Assembly (NCBI RefSeq): GCF_037893015.1
Contig: NC_133666.1
Coordinates: 560,366,541 to 560,430,540, forward strand
From: Macrotis lagotis
Lineage: Eukaryota > Chordata > Mammalia > Peramelemorphia > Peramelidae
Direction: 5' to 3'
Length of the DNA stretch: 64,000 nucleotides
Shown: positions 5,113 to 44,528 of the stretch, in pieces
Position numbering within the stretch: the stretch's first letter is position 1
Layout of the letters: every line of letters starts with the position of its first letter
The notes under the pieces: model-generated
Told to the model about the DNA's origin: nothing
Databases searched by the model: none
What the model saw: only the letters and a program-made list of their open reading frames with translations
Position numbers and translations under genes: made by a program

Positions 5113-5745
<633 letters not shown>

Positions 5746-13915: not shown

Positions 13916-14193
13916 TCTTGTACATAGGTGGTAGTTAAATAAATATTTACTAAATTGATTTGAATTGAATAAAATTGAATTGGTAGCAATAATCATGATG
14001 GGTAAAACACTGGTGGTAGTCAAACAGAGACTGGAGGACCCTAAGATGGAGATGTCAGGAATATTAAGATCACTTAGTAGGGATGTTAACTATGAAAACA
14101 CAATAGCCGCAATCTGCAATCAAAAGTAAATGATGATCTTTGCTCCCTCTTAATTCCAGCTGGTGCATCAGTGACAACATCACTACGAACAGC

Positions 14194-15225
14194 ATGATTA
14201 CTAGAACCTCAGTCACTGAAGTTTTCTTATGTCTTTGGAGATTTTATTTGTCTCCAAGGAGCACTGGATGGAAAGGTTTCTGGCAGCATTTTGGAGTTTG
14301 CTGTGTGGTTGGATTCATCTCAACTGTGCTCTTATATCTTGGCTTGTATTGGTTCCTGTCATCCTTAGCAATTTTCTTCATTCCATTTTGGATTACTATG
14401 TCCATCCTACTGTGTTGGTCCAAGCATGTACGGTGCTTTGGTATTCTCTTCTTTCTCTCTTGTGGACTACGTGAAGGTAGAAATGCTCTGATTACTGTTG
14501 GAACAGGGATTGTGACATTTGGCCATGTGAAAAATATCTTCCATAACCTGAAAGGCCTTCTGGAAGGAATAACCTGCAATCTCAGTATCAAAAGCTTTAT
14601 TATCCTTTTCCCTTTCTTGAATAAATACATTGAAGCAATTAAGTGGCTTTATAGTCTTGTCACAGATATCAATCTTTTTGAAGAGATTGTCTCTTGGAAT
14701 CATACTTTGGACTTGTCTGTTCTCAGTCCAAGCAAGGCCTTCGAGATTAGACTAAATGACACCAAAGGAGAAATCCTAAGTGTGATAGACCATGTAACCA
14801 CTGTCACAGAGGTGGTGTCTTCTCTGGGCCAAGGACTATTGACCATCATTGGGTTTGCTCTAGTCCTCCTCAACACAGGACTCTTCATGAGACGCTTCTT
14901 GGGCCCTCACAGCCACAGATTTGAAAACATCTACATCACTAAGCATTTTATTCAGTTTGATGAAAGTGAGAGGCATCAAAAAAGACCCTGTGTCCTTCCA
15001 CTTAATAAACAGGAAAGAAAGAAATATATTATTATTCCTTCCATCTACTTGACTTCTAAAGAGAAGAGAAACCTTGGACTGTTTTTCCTCCCCATACTGA
15101 CAAATCTCTATGTCTGGACCCTGTTTGCAGCCATTGATTATGGGCTGTATCAACTGATTTCTTCAGTAAACAAACATCTCCCCAACTTGCCAGGAATGGA
15201 GGTTCACTTGAAACTATATAATGAG
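14194..15225 (+). CDS. DCSTAMP: DCSTAMP first coding exon, residues 1-344
   Basis: A pyrimidine-rich acceptor ending in ttccag at 14159 precedes 34 bases of 5'UTR and the ATG at 14194. That ATG starts MITRTSVTEVFLCLW, which aligns with the human start MGIWTSGTDIFLSLW. The open frame runs further upstream, but those codons cross the splice acceptor and are not coding. The exon carries the first five or so membrane segments and the extracellular loop with the sequons. It ends LKLYNE followed by the donor gag|gtaagt at 15226. Human DCSTAMP also has one large coding exon with the same end. The ending GTAAGT would read on for some codons if the intron were retained; that is intron sequence. Confidence 0.95.
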
Positions 15226-18200
15226 GTAAGTGAGGATCATGGGATCATAGATTAAGAAGTGGAAAGGACTTCAGAGAGCATCTAATCTTACCACTTTATT
15301 TTACAGATGAGGAAAGTAAAGGGAAGGGAAATAAGTGACTTGCCATATGGTAAGAGAAGCAAAATTTGAAGACAGATCCTCAGACCCCAGATAGAATATG
15401 TTTTCCGCTAAATTACAGTCTTGCTGCCTTTGGACTCAGAGATGTAGAGAGATGATAGGGAGTGAGACTACAAAGGGCTCTTAAGTTTTGAGCTAGATTG
15501 TGTGACTTTAAGACAGGAAATATATATATATATATATCCAATTTTCTCAGATTCAGCTAGGTTATATGACTTTAGGTCATTCACAATTCCTTAAAATCCT
15601 TTAATGAAAATCACTTTTTTTATTAAAACAAACAAACAAGTTCTCAAGGGAGGTCCTTCAAGGGTTTAAGATGGTAATTGTATCTACCAAAGTAAAAAGA
15701 AATTCTAATGAATAAATTCATATTAATAACAATAGCACATCTCTATCATATTTAATAATTATAGCTAGTATTCAAATAGTGTTTTAAGTTTTGCAAAATA
15801 CTTTATAAATATTATCTGGTTTTATTGTCATAAAACCACAGAAAGTAGATGTTATTATTATCCCCATTTTAAGATGAAGAAACTGAGGCTAAGAAAGATT
15901 AAGGGACTTGTCCAGGGTCAGATGTCTAGTAACAATCTAGGGCAAAATTGAATTCAGGACATCTATCTAAATATCCAGGGTTAAATTCACTGTTGCCTCT
16001 AATGTTGTTTAGATTACCCTTTCCCCACAAAAACTGTATGAGAAAAATGCTATTATTTTCTATGTTCTTCATATAGGCCATTCTACCTCTAAAGCTACAT
16101 CTTTCCTACCATGAATGCCTAGAATGTACACCCTCTTTATCTCTGCCTGATTTTTCTTCCCTTAAGGCATGGTTCAAGGAACATCTCTGAAGACTTGCCT
16201 GATGAAAGACTAGCATCCTCCTTCTTAAACAATCTTCAGTTAGCCACTTTGTATATATTTGAATGTATTCACTTGCATTTATGCTGCATGCATATTTTAT
16301 ATGTCCTCATTGACTTCTCCATCAGAATCTATGCTCTTTTTGAGCAGAGATATTTTCATTCTTTGTACTTATAACTCCAGTGTAGGTTGTAGTAGTTTAA
16401 TAAATACTTGGTAGATTAATAAATATTTGATGACTGATTGATCAATGTTCATTTTACAAATAAGAAAACTGAAGCTGAGAGTTTAAGTGATTTGCCCATG
16501 ATCACAGATTTATAAATTTACAGTTTGTAAGTAAAGTTGTCAGGAATATTAAATAATAACCATTAGGGGTAAGTCAATTAACTGCTCTGTGCCTCATTTT
16601 CCTCACCTGTAAAATGAAGTGATTGAATAATATGCCCTTTTAGTTCCTTGCAACTCTAGATTTACAAACCTGTGATCCAAAAGGAAGAATACTGGATGGA
16701 AAAAAATGAGGCTTGAGCCAAGGCCCCTACAATTCAAATCTGTGATTCTATGATCAATTTGGAACCAGGTTATCTTTCACTTTACAAACAAGAGCTGAAC
16801 TTTTCCTTTCTGGATAGTATTTGATTTATGATTTGTAATTAGAAGCAGTATATTACATTGGAAAAAACATTGGATTTAGAGATAGAGAACTTAAGGAGAG
16901 GGAAATTCCTCAAGAGTTATACATAGTTTCTTTGGAAAGAGAATCCATTAAAAATATGTGAGTAGACAGGGTCTATACCCTGAAGAGATCTTGCAAAAGG
17001 ATAAAAACAACACTTGTACAAAAATATTCACAGCACTCCTGTTTGTGGTATCAAAGAATTGGAAATCATGTGAATGTACAGCAATTGGGAAATGACTGAA
17101 CAAATTGTGGTATATGGTATGTTATGGAACATAATGTTCTATTAGAAATCAGGAAGGATGGGGATTCAGAGAAGCCTGGAAAGACTTGCATGGACTGATG
17201 ATGAGCGAGATAAGGAGAACCAGAACACTGCACACCCTAATGGCAACATAGAGGTGATGATCAATCTTATTGGACTTCCTCATTCCATCAATGAGATAAT
17301 CAGAGACAATTTTAGAGCATCTGTGATGGAGAATACCATCTGTACCTTGAGAAAGCCTATGAGTTCAAAGACCAAAGTCTATTACCTTCAATTTTTTATT
17401 AAAAAAGTGTCTTATGTACTACATAATTTTGCTATCTCTAATATTTTATTTTCTCCTCAAAGATATGATTTCTCTCCCAACACATTCAATTTCGATCAAA
17501 GTATAGCATGGAAGGGGCGGCTAGGTGGTGCAGTGGATAGAGCACAGGCCCTGGAGTCACCAGACTGCCTTCTGTGGGGGGGGATGGGGGAAGCAAGGGA
17601 GGGCGGGGGAAAGTTTGTAAAATTCAAAACCTTACAGAAAATGATGGGTAGAAGCTATTATTATATGTATGATTGGAAAACAAATAAAATATTAATAAAA
17701 ATGTGAGTAGGAAGGAGAAGGAAGAAAAAGGAAGGATAAGTAGAGAGAAAATAGTGGTAAGAAAGAGAAGAAAAAAGAAAGTCAGAAAAAAGTCAGAAAG
17801 AAAAAGAGAAAGAGCAAGAATGAGCAAGAAAGAAAGGATGAAGGAAGAAAGGAAGGGAGGAAGGGAAGAAGGGAAGAAGGGAGGGAGGAAGGGAAGAAGG
17901 GAGGGAGGAAGGGAGGGAGAAAGGAAGTAGGGGAAGAAAAAGAAAGAAAGAAAGGAAGGAAGGAAGGAAGGAAGGAAGGAAGGAAGGAAGGAAGGAAGGA
18001 AGGAAGGAAGGAAGAAAGGAAGAAAGGAAGGGAAAGAAAGAAAAAGGAAGGAAGGAAGAAAGGAAGAGATAAAAGGAAGGAAAAAAGGATTGGAGAGAGG
18101 GAGGAAGAAAGGAAGGAAGAGGGGAAGAAAAGAGATGAACAAAAGTAAGAGGAGAGGGAGATGGAAGTAGAAGTGGTAAGAGAGGGATCTTACTTTGGTC

Positions 18201-21200
18201 AGACCAAATACAGTCATTTTAAATTCGTTTGAATTTTATTTTGTTGGTTGAAAATTGAAACAGAGGCTCTGTCGTTCCGGGAGCTTATTCTAAGAACCTG
18301 AAACCCTAGGGTGCCTTATAATTAACTAATTCCTTGGGCCTGGGAAAGGGGGTTGGGTGGTGTTCAGTGTAATCAGTTTGAAAAAACTAAGTAAATGAGA
18401 AAACAAACAAAATGTACCTGCTGAGAAGCAAGCAATGAATCTGAGAGGAGGGCCTATTTAGATTTAAGCAAGAAGTATCTAATGCTCTTTAAAATGCTTG
18501 CTCTGCAGTGTATAAATACAGATACTTGCCAACATAATGGAATTGAAAATGAGAGATAAAGTTCCATTTCCATCCTCTCTCCTGCATTTTTCAGTTCTAT
18601 GACCAGATTCATTTATTGTTTGCTAAATTAGTGAAATTCAGAAATGTTTATGAACGCAGGGATATTTACATGGTTACACACACACACACACACACACACA
18701 CTCCCATAGATACAGAAAGAAAATAAAAAAGTAGGAGTTCAAAGCCTAAAGGATTTCAAGACTTCAATGTGAGGGGGAGATGACAAGGCATTGTTAAGCA
18801 GGCCAGAGAATAAACAAGTCCAAACAGGAAATGATTGGGAGTGACAAGAAGGGGGCAGAGAATGGAAATAATTGGGAAATGGGAGGTTTCCCAATGGGGG
18901 AACAAGACAGAGCTTGTTAAAATTAATTTTGTCATTGGATTCCTCATAGGTGCTAAATGTCTGAATTCGTGATTTGTGTGGTTTTTTACCTGCTATATGT
19001 GAGCAGGTTCCCTTAGATTTTTCAAGTATGTTGATAAAGAGCAATTTGGAGGATCATAAGTTGAAGGTTAGAAAGAACCTCAGAGGTCTTCTACTTTAAC
19101 CCTCCTTCTTTTAAAATTGAGAAAATGTATGACCCAATAAGGAAAATGACTTGCCCAAGCTCACTACACTAGTGACATCATCCACACTATGATTTTTTAA
19201 AAAATTTTTATTTAAGGCAATGGGTTTAAGTAAATAAGTACCAAGGTCACATAGCTAGCTAGGTATTAAGTGTCTGGGACCGTATTTGAATTCAGGTACT
19301 CCTGACTCCAGGGCCGGTGCTCTATCCACTGCACCACCTAGCTGCACTATGCTTTTGAAAGATGAAATGTTTCAGGGCATAGGATGAATTGAAGTTCAGA
19401 TGGATCTGAATTGGTGAATCAAGTTAGATTTCTCTCCCATTAGTCCAAGAGAAAAGAAATGATGGCCTGAACTAGAGTACTGGTTGAGAAAACACTTGAA
19501 ACATTCACCTTCTGAAAGAGTTAAATATAAAAATGTTTACTCACTGCATTTATAACACAGCTTCCCAACCCTCAAATCCCTGCTTAGCTTCCTTGATGAA
19601 ATGCCTACTGTGCCACCTCGAAATTGGCCACATGCTGCTTTGTTATTGCAGGATTTCTCATCAGCCATTAAGTCTGGGTGTTTTGGCAATTTCAATTGTA
19701 GGGAAGAACTGGCACATTTGCTCAGGAGAACTAAACTTACCTATTTAGTTGCAGAGGTTCATTTTTAATTTGTTAATTAGAGATAGGCCACAGAAATTGT
19801 TTCCCTTGCTTTCTTCCCTAGACAACAGAACATTAATCCTCTCTTCCTCATTTCTATGACCCTGCAGTATCTCTATTATGTCCAAACAGGGGAAAAGAAA
19901 ATGTGTTGATCCCTGGGTATGATCAGGTTAGCATTCTAAGTCTGTGACCACCAGAGTATTAGGATGTTGGGATAGTAATCGAGGACTAAGTATCACATAT
20001 CCCTGAGGTTTTAACTCTCAAGTCCCAAGGCACTTCATTTAAACTGGAATATGTTATTCATGGATAGGATCTGGTCCATTAATTCCTGTTTTCCAAATGT
20101 GAAAACTAATCCACAGAGAGATTAAATGACTTTCCTAGGTCAGGGAAAAAGCTGAATCAACAAACCTGACTATTCTTATTGGCTTCATTACCTGACTATC
20201 AATGTCAAGTTCTTAATTCTGGGCCAAACTTAAGCATTTCACATTGACCTTGGTATGGTACCTGCATCATCCATTTTTTTTTTTGCTTCGATTAGGAAGG
20301 CAAATATTCCTAGTCCAAAATATACCCCAGATTCATGAAACAGTATTATATTTTTAAAGAACTCCAGAAAAAAATTTGGAGGGAACATCAGAAAAATGCT
20401 TTCTTATGTGGAACTTATTTTAGCATCCAACAACCAATATGGTATTTTTTTGGGGGGGTCACAGAATGTTGTTTCAGAAGATGCTTTAGTCTCCTATCAC
20501 TTATATCAGAATAGAATTTTCCTGTCAGGATGGAAAACTTATACCTCAGGGATGGGTTATATAGAATCTAACCCCACCTTTTATAGAAACTAGACCCAAA
20601 TGAGAACAGTCCCTCTTCTTGGATCAAGTTTTTAATGGAAAAAAAAATTGTTTTCCCCACAATTTTCAACATCTTTATTTAAAGTTTTGAGTTCCAATTT
20701 CTATTCCTCTTCCTTCTGTCTCCCCCTTCCCTTCTCCCCCTCCCTGAGAAGATAAACAATAAGATATAGGTTATACTTGTGCAATTTTGTAAAACATTTC
20801 CATAGTAGTCATTTTTGTATAAGAAGACTTGAATAAAAGAAAAAATGAAAGAAATTGAAAAATAGCATGCTTTAGTCTGTATTCAATCAATATTAGTTCT
20901 TTATAGTATGCTTCATCATTAGTCCTTTGGAATTATCTTGAATATTGTATTATTGAGAATAACTATTATCCACAATTCTTCATTGAACAATATTGTTGTT
21001 ACTGGAGACAATTCTCTTGGTTCTATTCATCAATTCATGTAAGTCTTTCCAGGTTTTCCTGAAATCATCCTACTTGTCATTATAGCACAAAAATATTCCA
21101 TTACAATCATATATCACACTTTGTTTAACCATTCCCCAATTTATGGGAAACTTTGATTTCCAATTTTTTGCCTCCATCACTACTTAGCTTCCTTCAAATC

Positions 21201-24200
21201 AAGTCCCATCTTCTGCAAATGTAATTGTACTAATTTTGTACATATTTCTTCAAAGATGTCTCTTTTATTGGATGTCTTTGACATAACAGTGGTATTGCTA
21301 GATCAAAGGTATGCATAGTTCCAAATTGCTGTCCAGAATGATTGATTCAGTTCACAATTCCACCATAATGCATTAGTGTCCCAGTTTTCCCACAGCATCT
21401 CCATACCATGTAAGCTGGTACTTCAGAGTTGTTTTAATTCATATCTAAAACATGGATCCCACTAAGTTTCATCATCCTGATGTTGGTAGTGCTGGGTCTG
21501 CTGTCCTCCATTCTGATTAATAATGATTTAGAACATTTTTATATGTCTATAGGAAACTTTGATTTCTTTGTCTGAAAACTACCTGTTCATATCCTTTGAC
21601 TATTTATCAATTGGAAAATGAATGGTTTGTTTTTTTATAAATTAGACTCAGTTCTCTATGTATTTGAGAAATCTCTTTATCAGAGATATTTGTTGCAAAA
21701 ATTTCCCCCAGTTTTCTGCTTTCCTTAATAATAATTGTGATTGAATTGATTTTGTTTGTATAAAACTTTTTAATTTTACATGATCAAAATTATCTATTTT
21801 ACATCTTGTCACTATCTTTTTTTGTTCCTAAATTCTTCTCTTATCCATGAATCTGATAGATAATTATTCCACATTCTCTTAATTTGTTTATGATATCACT
21901 TTTTATGTTTAAATCATATATCCATTTTGATTTTATCTTGGTGTACAGTGTGAGGTCTGTAGGAAAACTAGGTTTCTACCTAATTTCTGCCATACTATTT
22001 TCCAGTTTTCCCAGCAGTTTTTGTCAAATAATGAGTTTTTCCCAAAAAACTTAGAAACAACTTTAATTAAATATGAGTTATATAAAAGCTAAGAAGATCA
22101 AAATTGTATGAAGTTGCAGCACTGAAAAAAGAAGAGATTTGGATATCAAAACCAGATGGGGTTTGATTTATGAATCTCACATATTATTAAATTTATTTAG
22201 TGCTTTGAAATTTTAAAAGTACTATATATGATATAATATATTATATACATATATGTTCTATCTTTTTATCCTTACAATTCTGTAAAGTAGGTTTTGTAAA
22301 TGTAATTAAATCCATTTTACAGATGAGAAAACAGAGCCTCAAAAAAAGATTAAGTGATTTGCCTATAGTCAATGCTAACTAGTATGAGATTCCAATCCAG
22401 GTCTATCCTAACACTAAATTCAGCATTTTTCAGATCCTGCTTTGACTTTTGGGCCCTTCACAATGTGGTTTCTTTCTTCCTTTGCAGTCTTATTTTCCTC
22501 TATATAATCTTTAGTCCAGTGACACTAGATTCCTTAATGTTCCCCTTTACACAAGCCTGGAATTCTCTCCCTCCTTCCATCCCCACCATCACTACTATAT
22601 AGCTTCCTTCAAACCAAGTCCTATCTTTTGCAAAACATCTTCCCAATTCCCCTTAATCCTAATTCTTTTCTTCTGAAATTATCTTTAAAGTATCCTGCAT
22701 GTATCTTGTTCATACATAGTTATTTACAACTTGATTCCCAATTAGGCTGCAAACTCCTTTAGAGCAGGGACTTTTTTTGCCTTCCTTTGTAAACTCAGAA
22801 CTTAGTAGAGTGCCTTATATACAGTATTTAATAAAGACTACTTGATTTAACTTGACTTTGCTTGTGTTTTAGGTGAAGGGAAATCATGACATCATAACTG
22901 ACTCTTCCTTTAATATATCTATGTTTGAGCCCAACTGTATCCCCAAACCTGAGCTCTTTATATCTAAAACATGGATCCCACTAAGTTTCATCATCCTGAT
23001 GTTGGTAGTGCTGGGTCTGCTGTCCTCCATTCTGATGCAATTTAAAATCCTAGTGTCTGGATCATTCTACCCTGATGTAGAAAGGGACCGGATACACTAT
23101 CTGCATGCCAAGATCCTCAGGAGAAGATCCAAGCAGCCACTGAGGAAAGGAAAAGAGAAACTGAAGCAGTTAACTTCAGAGGTAAGAATTGGACGGGACA
23201 AAAGAAGCCTAACTGTGCCTGTATTTAATCTGAGAATCAGATTATGGTGTTTACCAAGATGCAGTGTTAAAATGAAAATGACAGACTTTTTTTTTTAAAC
23301 CACTTTGACATTTATATAGTACTTTGAAGTTCACAAGAAAATGTTAGAAGAGGGATTCAAAGTCAGGTCTTCTTAACTCTAAGAGCAGTGTATTTCTATG
23401 CCTTTTACCATAATGATTCCTATCAAGGCAGGCCCACATTTAAACTGTATATGCAAAGGAAATGAGGTGTGTGGTTAGAGAGCTCACCTCTACTATGCAG
23501 GAAGAGCTACATTCAAATCCTGTCTCTGACACATCTTGGCTGTGTGATCTCGGACAAATCATTTAACCTCTGAGTACTCTAGACAATGACTAGAGAGAAT
23601 TTCATCACCTGGAAGTTCCCTCTACCAACGAATTCATGGTCTAATCCCTATTCCACAGCAGACAAATCTTTGGGGTATCATGAACTTGTGCATTAGAAGT
23701 ATAATTATTAGGGTTTAAATTTTTTTGCTTTGTTTTGTTTAACTAAGAAAGCAGTTGTTAAACTTTAAAAACAAAATCTTAAAAATATAGGTTAAAATAA
23801 AACAACAGAAAATATAGGTTAGACATAAAGTTTTATTCTCTATTAATTCCCATTAACCTATAGATAGAGGCCATTCTAGTAATGACCACACCAAGCAGAG
23901 AGAAATCAGAAAACTTATCCTGCAATAAGGGGAGTATACATAACAAGAGTTAAGCTTAAACTTCCCTGAAGACCATTCTATTATTTGATATCCAAGAGAA
24001 CCATCCTTCTGAAATGCTATTTTGCCTGAGGGAGGCCACTTGTTTTATGACTTTAAGAAACTGTAGGGCAGGACAAGTCTGACTTTCAAAATCTGAGGAG
24101 GACACACTCCACCCTTCACAATAGCTAAGAAATACCAATCTTTGACCAGGTACAGTTGTAAAAACTTACAGTAATTATTAAACCTTGACACAATTGAGTT

Positions 24201-25860: not shown

Positions 25861-26604
25861 TTGTTTGCATGTTGTAGCACCCCGCCCCCCCCATTGGATT
25901 GCAAGCTCCTCGAGAATTGAGGACAAGAACCTCTTCTTCTGCCTCTTTTTGTGTCTCCAGTATTTATTAAACTACTTGGCTCCCAGCAGGGACTTAATAA
26001 ATGTTTATTGATTGAATCCTATGAGAATGTAAACTAGGATGCTTTCATAGGACAAGCTGTACTTTGATAGAATATACCAGAGTACCTCTTCTAAACCTTA
26101 GTCAATAAATCATTAAGAGGCAATTCCAGTCCACCAAACCCAATCAGTAAGGTGTCAGTACATGAATCCACTTCCAGGAGGGATGGAATGAAGTTTCATT
26201 TGCTTTAGGAATATCTGTTCCTCTCATTTCCTTCACCCCTCCCCCAAAATCTAAGTTCCTGGAGGGTACAGACTTTTAAACAAACAAACCCACAAGTCTT
26301 TGCGTTCCTAGCACCTGCCACAATATCTTGAACAGAGCTGACAGTTTAATAAATGTTTGTAGAATTAAATTGAATTGTCCTCTACCACCCCCATTTCCCC
26401 TCCCAAGAAGGAAAGTAAGGACCTTTGAAGAGTCCTCTTAGGTCTACAGATTATGCAGTAAGTAGCTTTGACAAACACCTGGTATTTGAGGCTAATTTGA
26501 TTCCAATTTGCCTTTTCCGTCTTTTCCAGCTGCATTTCTGGGTTCCTGTCCTGAAAATGCTTGGGGAGGGCACCACATCCCCTGCAAATGAAAACAATCT
26601 TTGA
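14194..26604 (+). CDS. DCSTAMP: DC-STAMP, whole coding region (three exons)
   Basis: Coding join 14194-15225, 22873-23181, 26530-26604 gives 471 codons plus TGA, against 470 residues in human DC-STAMP as I recall it. The protein is a multipass membrane receptor needed for fusion of osteoclast and macrophage precursors, and it also acts in dendritic cells. Recognition rests on long stretches close to the human protein, such as LSCGLREGRNAL, GTGLFM-like and ENIYIT segments, RPCVLPLNK, LGLFFLPIL and FEPNCIPKP. Hydrophobic segments lie near residues 33-55, 57-75, 79-110, 212-232, 294-322 and 377-401. The C-terminal half matches the DC-STAMP-like domain family. N-glycosylation sequons occur at N169 (NHT) and N188 (NDT). 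All three splice junctions are GT-AG and phase 0, and no stop interrupts the frame, so the gene looks functional. Introns are about 7.6 and 3.3 kb and full of repeats. The 5' noncoding exon was not found. Confidence 0.95.
15265..15420 (-). repeat. MIR fragment in DCSTAMP intron 2
   Basis: 'ttacagatgaggaaagtaaa', 'gtgacttgccatatggtaag' in reverse MIR order. Confidence 0.65.
15750..16005 (-). repeat. MIR/CORE-SINE
   Basis: 'ttttgcaaaatactttataa', 'gatgaagaaactgaggctaa', 'gggacttgtccagggtcaga'. Confidence 0.8.
16080..16440 (+). repeat. L2-type LINE 3' end
   Basis: 'aggcatggttcaaggaacat', 'tttgagcagagatattttca', then aataaatatttgatgactga. Confidence 0.65.
16445..16680. repeat. Two MIR fragments in opposite orientation
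   Basis: 16445-16545 reads as antisense MIR ('aagaaaactgaagctgagag'); 16565-16680 as sense MIR ('cctcattttcctcacctgta'). Confidence 0.6.
16966..17700 (+). mobile_element. L1, 5'-truncated 3' end
   Basis: End of ORF2 and 3' UTR ('gaacaaattgtggtatatgg', 'ggagaataccatctgtacct', 'acagaaaatgatgggtagaa'). A duplication atgtgagtag lies at 16956-16965 and 17701-17710. A SINE head sits inside at 17514-17560. Confidence 0.88.
17514..17560 (+). repeat. SINE head only, inside L1 3' UTR
   Basis: The first 47 bases of the MAR1/WSINE family, ggggcggctaggtggtgcag to ctggagtcac, with no body, tail or target duplication. Confidence 0.85.
17701..18185. repeat. Polypurine tract with (GGAA)n
   Basis: About 480 bases of almost only A and G on the + strand. 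Bases 17840-17926 and 17929-18069 are purine only, with a run of about 15 GGAA units near 17951-18012. It gives the spurious frames rich in K/E/R (+) and L/P/S/F (-). Confidence 0.97.
18186..18673. other. Unrecognised intron sequence, possibly conserved
   Basis: No repeat recognised; moderately complex sequence around 18470-18640. A cross-mammal alignment would tell whether it is conserved. Confidence 0.3.
18674..18702. repeat. (CA)n microsatellite
   Basis: Fourteen or so CA units. Confidence 0.95.
19050..19184 (-). repeat. CORE-SINE fragment
   Basis: 'aaagaacctcagaggtcttc' and 'aaaatgacttgcccaagct'. Interrupted at its end by the next SINE. Confidence 0.6.
19192..19344 (-). repeat. MAR1/WSINE-type SINE
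   Basis: Antisense SINE ending caccacctagctg, with cactatg at 19185-19191 and 19345-19351. Confidence 0.88.
19352..20654. other. Mostly unrecognised intron sequence
   Basis: Only a MIR-like antisense fragment near 20080-20230 ('agagattaaatgactttcct') was recognised. Confidence 0.4.
21175..21219 (+). other. L2-like patch inside the antisense L1
   Basis: 45 bases matching 22587-22634 (part of the L2 just before DCSTAMP exon 3), with three transitions and a three-base gap. It replaces normal L1 sequence between ttttttgcc and the following L1 segment. Same orientation and same spacing range (about 1.4 kb) as the exon patch. Confidence 0.6.
21441..21517 (+). other. 77-base duplicate of DCSTAMP exon 3 inside an L1
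   Basis: Identical base for base to 22960-23036, which codes residues about 374-399 (last membrane segment) of DC-STAMP. It lies in the same orientation, 1,519 bases upstream, within the antisense L1 at 20655-22045. There it replaces the short stretch of L1 ORF2 normally found between gagttgttttaatt and aataatgattta. It has no splice sites of its own. Confidence 0.9.
22185..22420 (-). repeat. MIR/CORE-SINE
   Basis: 'ccattttacagatgagaaaa' and 'gattaagtgatttgcctata', with a TA-rich middle. Confidence 0.7.
22440..22858 (+). repeat. L2-type LINE 3' end abutting DCSTAMP exon 3
   Basis: 'agcttccttcaaaccaagtc', 'ggctgcaaactcctttagag', cagggactttttttgcctt and the tail 'aataaagactacttgattt', ending about 15 bases before the exon. 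Confidence 0.75.
22873..23181 (+). CDS. DCSTAMP: DCSTAMP second coding exon, residues 345-447
   Basis: The acceptor tgttttag ends at 22872 and the donor gag|gtaaga begins at 23182. The 103 codons read VKGNHDIITDSSFNISMFEP and onward. They match human DC-STAMP through NISVFEPNCIPKP, the last membrane segment (about residues 377-401) and the cytoplasmic YLHAK...RSKQPL stretch. The sequence upstream to about 22858 is an L2 3' end, so the acceptor sits only about 15 bases from a repeat. Bases 22960-23036 of this exon recur exactly at 21441-21517. Confidence 0.95.
23455..23690 (+). repeat. Older tRNA-derived SINE
   Basis: 'ggaagagctacattcaaatc', 'ggctgtgtgatctcggacaa' and the tail 'acctggaagttccctctacc', shared with the copy at 4510. 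Confidence 0.65.
23700..24230. other. Unrecognised intron sequence
   Basis: AT-rich with short direct repeats around 'aaaatataggtta' (near 23783 and 23810); no element recognised. Confidence 0.35.
24231..24375 (+). repeat. MAR1/WSINE-type SINE
   Basis: ggggcagctaggtggcccag through 'aaccccattgcctaaat'. No clear duplication. Confidence 0.88.
24500..24634 (-). repeat. L2-type 3' end, antisense
   Basis: 'cactctgctagatgttgggg' and 'tctcaaggagcttgcattcc', the reverse complement of the usual L2 tail wording. Confidence 0.5.
24635..24676. repeat. 11-base tandem repeat with CCATGG palindromes
   Basis: Unit ccatggtagca, three copies (one with ta for ca) plus a final ccatgg. The whole block begins gtccatgg and ends ccatggac. 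Confidence 0.9.
24800..24955 (-). repeat. Long-form marsupial SINE, antisense
   Basis: 'gtcatgtctgactccccatg' and 'gatttgccatttccttctcc', the reverse complement of the 3' half seen at 45180-45292. Confidence 0.75.
25000..26018 (+). repeat. L2-type LINE 3' region
   Basis: 'gaatgtccagtaaacatctt', 'tttggcattcaaagtccttc', 'tacaggaagcctttcatgac', tggattgcaagctcctcgag and a tail 'aataaatgtttattgattga'. A (TA)n run lies at 25815-25857. Confidence 0.75.
26215..26375 (+). repeat. L2-type 3' tail
   Basis: 'aagttcctggagggtacaga' to 'aataaatgtttgtagaatta', just before the last DCSTAMP exon. Confidence 0.6.
26530..26604 (+). CDS. DCSTAMP: DCSTAMP last coding exon, residues 448-471
   Basis: The exon is too short to be seen as a long open frame. 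Acceptor cttttccag ends at 26529, and the 24 codons read LHFWVPVLKM then LGEGTTSPANENNL and TGA. The first ten residues match human IHFWLPVLKM, in the right order after exon 3 and in phase 0. The last 14 residues do not resemble the human tail IRKKQMDIASADKS, so the extreme C-terminus is poorly conserved. An L2 tail ends about 150 bases upstream. Confidence 0.9.
   Translation: MHFWVPVLKMLGEGTTSPANENNL

Positions 26605-44479: not shown

Positions 44480-44528
<49 letters not shown>
44480..44528. repeat. (CA)n microsatellite
   Basis: About 24 CA units. Confidence 0.98.

Follow-up and report, generated by a model that had tools for sequence, protein, structure and literature searches.

A local templated insertion as the best explanation for an exact 77-base copy of a DC-STAMP exon in an old intronic L1 of Macrotis lagotis

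The DC-STAMP locus and an exact 77-base repeat

The window analyzed here is a stretch of 64,000 nucleotides from Macrotis lagotis (C9:560366541-560430540 of an assembly of 3,655,600,598 bases in 607 contigs), which carries coding parts of DC-STAMP on its forward strand. A large open frame at 14137-15252 (+ strand) includes the main DC-STAMP coding exon, the exact ends of which are approximate, and matches the Pfam family DC_STAMP (PF07782) with an E value of 1e-31. Downstream, an exon at 22873-23181 (+ strand), flanked by the splice-like signals TTTTAG and GTAAG, has an open frame that matches the C-terminal part of PF07782 (E value 4.1e-17). Another open frame, at 26419-26604, is probably the last coding exon and contains LHFWVPVLKML, which we take to resemble the C-terminus of DC-STAMP.

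Between the two PF07782 exons, bases 21441-21517 (+ strand; hereafter patch 2) were identical to bases 22960-23036 (+ strand) at 77 of 77 positions, in direct orientation and with a spacing of 1519 bases. From this identity, the PF07782 match of the exon at 22873-23181 and a genome search, the donor was placed within that exon. The first-pass annotation had reported an exact copy of a DCSTAMP coding exon, in the same orientation and about 1.5 kb upstream in the same gene, and its coordinates, source and orientation were all borne out. To the left, a single mismatch, with C in the copy where the exon has T, is followed by two more matches, so that the pair extends to 80 bases at 98.75% identity. 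No longer exact repeat was listed for the window, in a listing that omitted 25-mers occurring at least 50 times; the next entries were microsatellites of at most 59 bases, led by an AAGG repeat. Across the 3.66 Gb assembly, the 77-mer gave 2 candidates and 2 matches, both at the DC-STAMP locus, and a search with the whole exon returned only the exon itself and the fragment at 21441-21517. Because matches of a 32-base piece, 3 mismatches being allowed, were expected by chance 0.00 times (100 shuffles), the shuffles and the repeat listing together rule out a chance match as the origin of the pair; a dispersed family is likewise ruled out by the finding of only two places genome-wide. A 29-base exon pattern had no match in viral contigs, Rfam gave no match at the gathering threshold over 20-24 kb of the window, and no title on this DC-STAMP copy was among the literature matches listed, including 8 of 2,356 on marsupial DC-STAMP. 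Read in the frame of the exon, the copy is directly preceded by a stop and runs into another 45 codons on, and thus encodes no usable part by itself. No result indicated a function for the intronic copy.

The interrupted L1 and the junctions of the copy

The host of patch 2 is an old L1 ORF2 remnant at 21027-22045 (- strand), antisense to the gene, the span given being the stretch that has L1 relatives in the window. Its minus-strand piece matched human L1 ORF2p weakly in the top four of 7 matches listed (E values 0.098-0.22), two unrelated proteins being among the 7, and a related L1 copy at 53.5-54.5 kb of the window matched L1 ORF2p with an E value of 2.8e-4. These matches agree with the first-pass view of the host as an antisense L1, and the layout of the acceptor presumably agrees with human L1. 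For comparison, 40 of 4610 candidate L1 places were scored, 39 of which are not the acceptor locus. Taking 20 of those 39 from the top down (C4:240721448, C6:46782017 and C1:239356171 were skipped on the way) together with two of six relatives in the window gave 22 L1 copies; the remaining four window relatives stand outside this count.

An insertion at the site of patch 2 was found in 0 of the 22 copies, and an L1 piece near 49.2 kb of the window, one outside the count, spans the site with a deletion and without an insertion. The bases between the equivalents of 21439 and 21518 number 14 nt in 18 of the 22 copies, and 13, 11, 7 and 0 in one each. The common form reads GTTTTAATT, then TGCATTTCTCTAAT or ...TGAT, then CAATARTGATTTAG, and the target reads GTTTTAATTC, the copy and TAATAATGATTTAG. 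Ordinary L1 sequence is thus broken up by the exon piece. The direction of copying was from the exon to the L1, as the coding sequence of the exon is intact and the insertion is missing from related L1 copies. An intact donor elsewhere and a known empty form of the interrupted target, two features of templated insertions, are both present. The L1 lost 14 nt at most at the site, or about 4 nt when CAT (left) and TTCTGAT (right) are assigned to it, so that the few missing L1 bases described in the first pass amount to about 4 to 14 nt, depending on the assignment of ambiguous bases. Near patch 2, at about 21400-21417, the L1 is also without some 40 bases of most relatives, between ...CTCCA and ...GTGTGAGGTGG, as judged by eye.

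At the left junction, most L1 copies agree with base 21440 in having C, where the exon has T, and the AT that follows is common to the L1 and the exon. The right end of the copy reads ...CATTCTGAT, and its final 7 bases, TTCTGAT, may be the L1's own. The number of bases shared with the L1 copies at this end was 7 nt in three copies, 6 in two, 4 in one, 2 in eleven, 1 in four and 0 in one. TTCTGAT is accordingly the best candidate for microhomology, with 6-7 nt given the L1 form of 5 of the 22 copies and 2 nt for 11 of the 22. When the donor end was moved along 22.08-24 kb, a range that takes in the true end, the best of the 22 copies reached 7 nt at 0.6% and 6 nt at 1.8% of positions, and single copies reached 2 nt or more at 24%. 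Microhomology at the right junction would therefore be favored only if the acceptor L1 had the minority form (5/22), and the copies sharing 2, 1 or 0 nt count against a local templated insertion. The bases to the right of the copy (TAATAATG) are ordinary L1 sequence where the exon reads GCAATTT. Because the L1 continues there, the TAAT after the copy belongs to the L1 and not to the exon, and the 'taat' microhomology proposed in the first pass gives way to TTCTGAT.

The edges of patch 2 also bear on retrotransposition by the L1 machinery and on nonallelic gene conversion, which together we regard as extremely improbable. The site adjoins TTTTAATT, which we take to resemble an L1 endonuclease site and which would suit retrotransposition, but no poly(A) or poly(T) was seen at the copy edges and the TTAAT that flanks the copy on both sides is native L1 (TTTTAATT on the left; CAATAATG or, in the copy L035, TAATAATG on the right). 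Since both occurrences match native L1 sequence, they are no target-site duplication, and none was found around patch 2. The absence of retrotransposition marks noted earlier thus holds, and an L1-mediated retrocopy (class 1 TSIP), for which poly(A) and a target-site duplication are diagnostic, was rejected. Nonallelic gene conversion, which the first pass had offered alongside template switching, is diagnosed by homology around the tract and was rejected as well: the exon and the L1 share little homology to seed a tract, and because only a few edge bases are common to the L1 copies and the exon, a classical conversion tract would be without a pairing partner. No result supported the first-pass idea that the copy could act as a local donor converting the exon; 77 bp would be short for mammalian gene conversion, and, the two copies being identical, conversion of the exon by the copy would now change nothing.

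A further patch of greater divergence within the L1

The same L1 contains another patch, missed in the first pass, at 21171-21219 (+ strand; patch 1). These 49 bases match 22583-22634 (+ strand) in direct orientation with 86.5% identity over 52 aligned positions. The matched sequence, which lies in this intron too, is part of an old dispersed repeat and, as the best-scoring match, is the probable donor. By eye, the place of patch 1 reads as L1 in 20 of the 22 copies, without such sequence, and L043 and L047 are no longer L1-like there. The donor repeat had 27 scored matches in the genome including itself; the other 26 showed 68-84% identity, and only four of them reach position 61 or before of the 181-base query. 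Under one scoring scheme, which covered 12 of these 26 copies, patch 1 scored 69 against the local donor. The 13 loci holding the 12 other repeat copies (L012 and L057 being one and the same) gave 18-35, a set of 20 L1 copies 14-19 and the 20 sampled 10-kb loci 18-28.

Patch 1 and the local donor have a gap in common that is absent in five of six aligned family copies. Two observations count against a local origin. L054, which is also the best-scoring other repeat copy (35), has a similar, longer gap, and at the three interior substitutions patch 1 sides with family copies (6, 3 and 4 of 6) and not with the local donor. The substitutions would fit a patch that kept the older state of the donor, and would also fit an origin from another copy. 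A search of the assembly with patch 1 (91 bases) found only itself but was blind at the 86.5% level; because the local donor, alike to this degree, also escaped it, the search leaves other donors possible. A weak repeat around GGAAACTTTGATTTC (21146, 21553) was considered as a third patch and rejected, because CTTTGATTT stands in L1 relatives at both sites.

Patch 1 also bears on whether exon sequence was wrongly put into the L1 during assembly. The perfect identity of the two copies of patch 2 is what such an error would give, but the contigs are chromosome-scale (up to 934 Mb), the insert lies within an L1 from which a few bases are missing, base 21440 differs from the exon, and the divergence of patch 1 is too great for a copy made in assembly. 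We therefore consider an assembly error very unlikely.

Age, number of events and mechanism

The first-pass annotation held that full identity implies a very recent event. However, 0 differences in 77 bases bound the divergence only at 3.8% (95% upper bound), so that a very recent event is allowed and not forced. At a rate of about 2e-9 per site and year per lineage, a value not specific to this species, 3.8% would correspond to up to nearly 10 million years. Between patch 1 and the local donor, 3 of the 46 interior sites differ; with the edge base and the 3-base gap, the differences number 4-5. Presuming the local donor, equal age of the patches had a probability of 0.05-0.11 for 3 differences, falling to 0.007-0.05 for 4 or 5, the range being set by the exon constraint assumed. 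Because of the fall to 0.007-0.05, two separate events appear more likely. A single complex event made up of several template jumps to the block 22583-23036 would be a sub-case of our preferred explanation, and we think it rather doubtful: the two patches lie in the same L1 in the same orientation and colinear order, their donors are 325 bp apart, and 3/46 versus 0/77 differences are compatible with one age, whereas counting 4-5 differences speaks against it. Tentatively, the old L1 may have acted as a trap for local copying, patched at least twice, or by one multi-jump event, from a 454-bp block downstream, and local template switching would in that case seed exon pieces into introns without retrotransposition.

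Taking these results together, we conclude that patch 2 is a real and well-resolved local templated insertion, a known kind of mutation, and that patch 1 is the more notable of the two. Template switching, already named as a likely cause in the first pass, gains from the exact local copy, the small L1 loss, the lack of retrotransposition marks and the presence in the same L1 of patch 1, for which the best match is likewise local. We assign a probability of roughly 0.8 to the explanation that patch 2 was inserted from a local DNA template, either by template switching or through break repair of the copy-and-join kind. The lesion, the enzyme and the DNA nature of the template are parts of the account that we infer. 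In this account, a DNA break or stalled fork would have arisen in the germline within the old intronic L1, some 70-77 bases would have been copied from DNA 1.5 kb downstream (on the sister chromatid or a resected strand), and the L1 would then have been rejoined, the process being template switching of the SDSA, MMBIR or pol theta type. The enzyme cannot be read from the sequence, and 77 bp is longer than typical for pol theta insertions. The pol theta insertions described in PMC11724358 otherwise resemble patch 2 in being copied from close to the break and in having a small deletion, as well as microhomology, for which patch 2 has a candidate; the same paper reports templated-insertion signatures in 6205 of 56,222 complex substitutions of the human pangenome.

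An RNA template was also weighed, in which DC-STAMP pre-mRNA would be reverse transcribed and the cDNA would patch a break, giving a class 2 templated sequence insertion. As described by Onozawa and Aplan (PMC5110952), class 2 insertions resemble patch 2 in having no target duplication or poly(A), a small junction deletion, possible microhomology, an intact donor and a similar size (73-414 bp in the experimental ones), and the authors favor RNA; both patches moreover have the transcript orientation. However, the donors they describe are distant regions, whereas the donor of patch 2 lies within the gene itself at a distance of 1.5 kb, and both best donors are 1.4-1.5 kb from their patches. Because both are local, an RNA template is less likely than DNA, and we judge it unlikely.

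Returning to a DNA template, PMC8421209 and PMC5104497 describe MMBIR/FoSTeS templated insertions, human germline variants possibly with several templates, which like patch 2 are short copies of nearby DNA and are joined at a few homologous bases, as patch 2 may be. MMBSearch, as presented there, seeks inverted copies with templates within 100 bp, in contrast to the direct copy at 1.5 kb found here, and PMC5104497 includes template switching at complex breakpoints in mammalian repair reporters. For insertions at human meiotic breaks, PMC7615360 reports template switching and a surplus of those sized within the resection range, which is about 2 kb. These hotspot variants resemble our case in template switching, as proposed here, in possible microhomology and in sizes within that range, and differ in being human polymorphisms. 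Because the donor distances of 1.4-1.5 kb fit this range, we counted them in favor of local templating.

In patch 2, the copying of a local template in an animal germline has left a clean record, and a single assembly shows its source, its target, relatives with an empty site and the two junctions. The two patches together suggest that an old transposon can preserve more than one scar of this kind, and that fragments of coding exons can reach introns with no retrotransposition involved. As a direct repeat, the 77-bp pair might in principle mediate a 1519-bp deletion, which would take away the splice acceptor of the exon.

A background survey by blastn self-search covered 20 sampled 10-kb loci and the window (264 kb, including 9306 N), a sample too small for a genome-wide rate, and its listing dropped rows below 35 bases, below 85% identity or of low complexity. 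Among the rows listed, the 77-bp pair was the sole one at 100%. The next was an inverted 40-bp pair at 17520-17559 and 19303-19342 (97.5%), probably parts of dispersed repeats. A direct 267-bp pair in the sampled locus L019 (1644-1906 and 2676-2942; 94.8%, 770 bp apart) may be a local duplication or a repeat family, and long AC and AAGG microsatellites lie near 5116-5218, 44482-44528 and 17952-18014 of the window.
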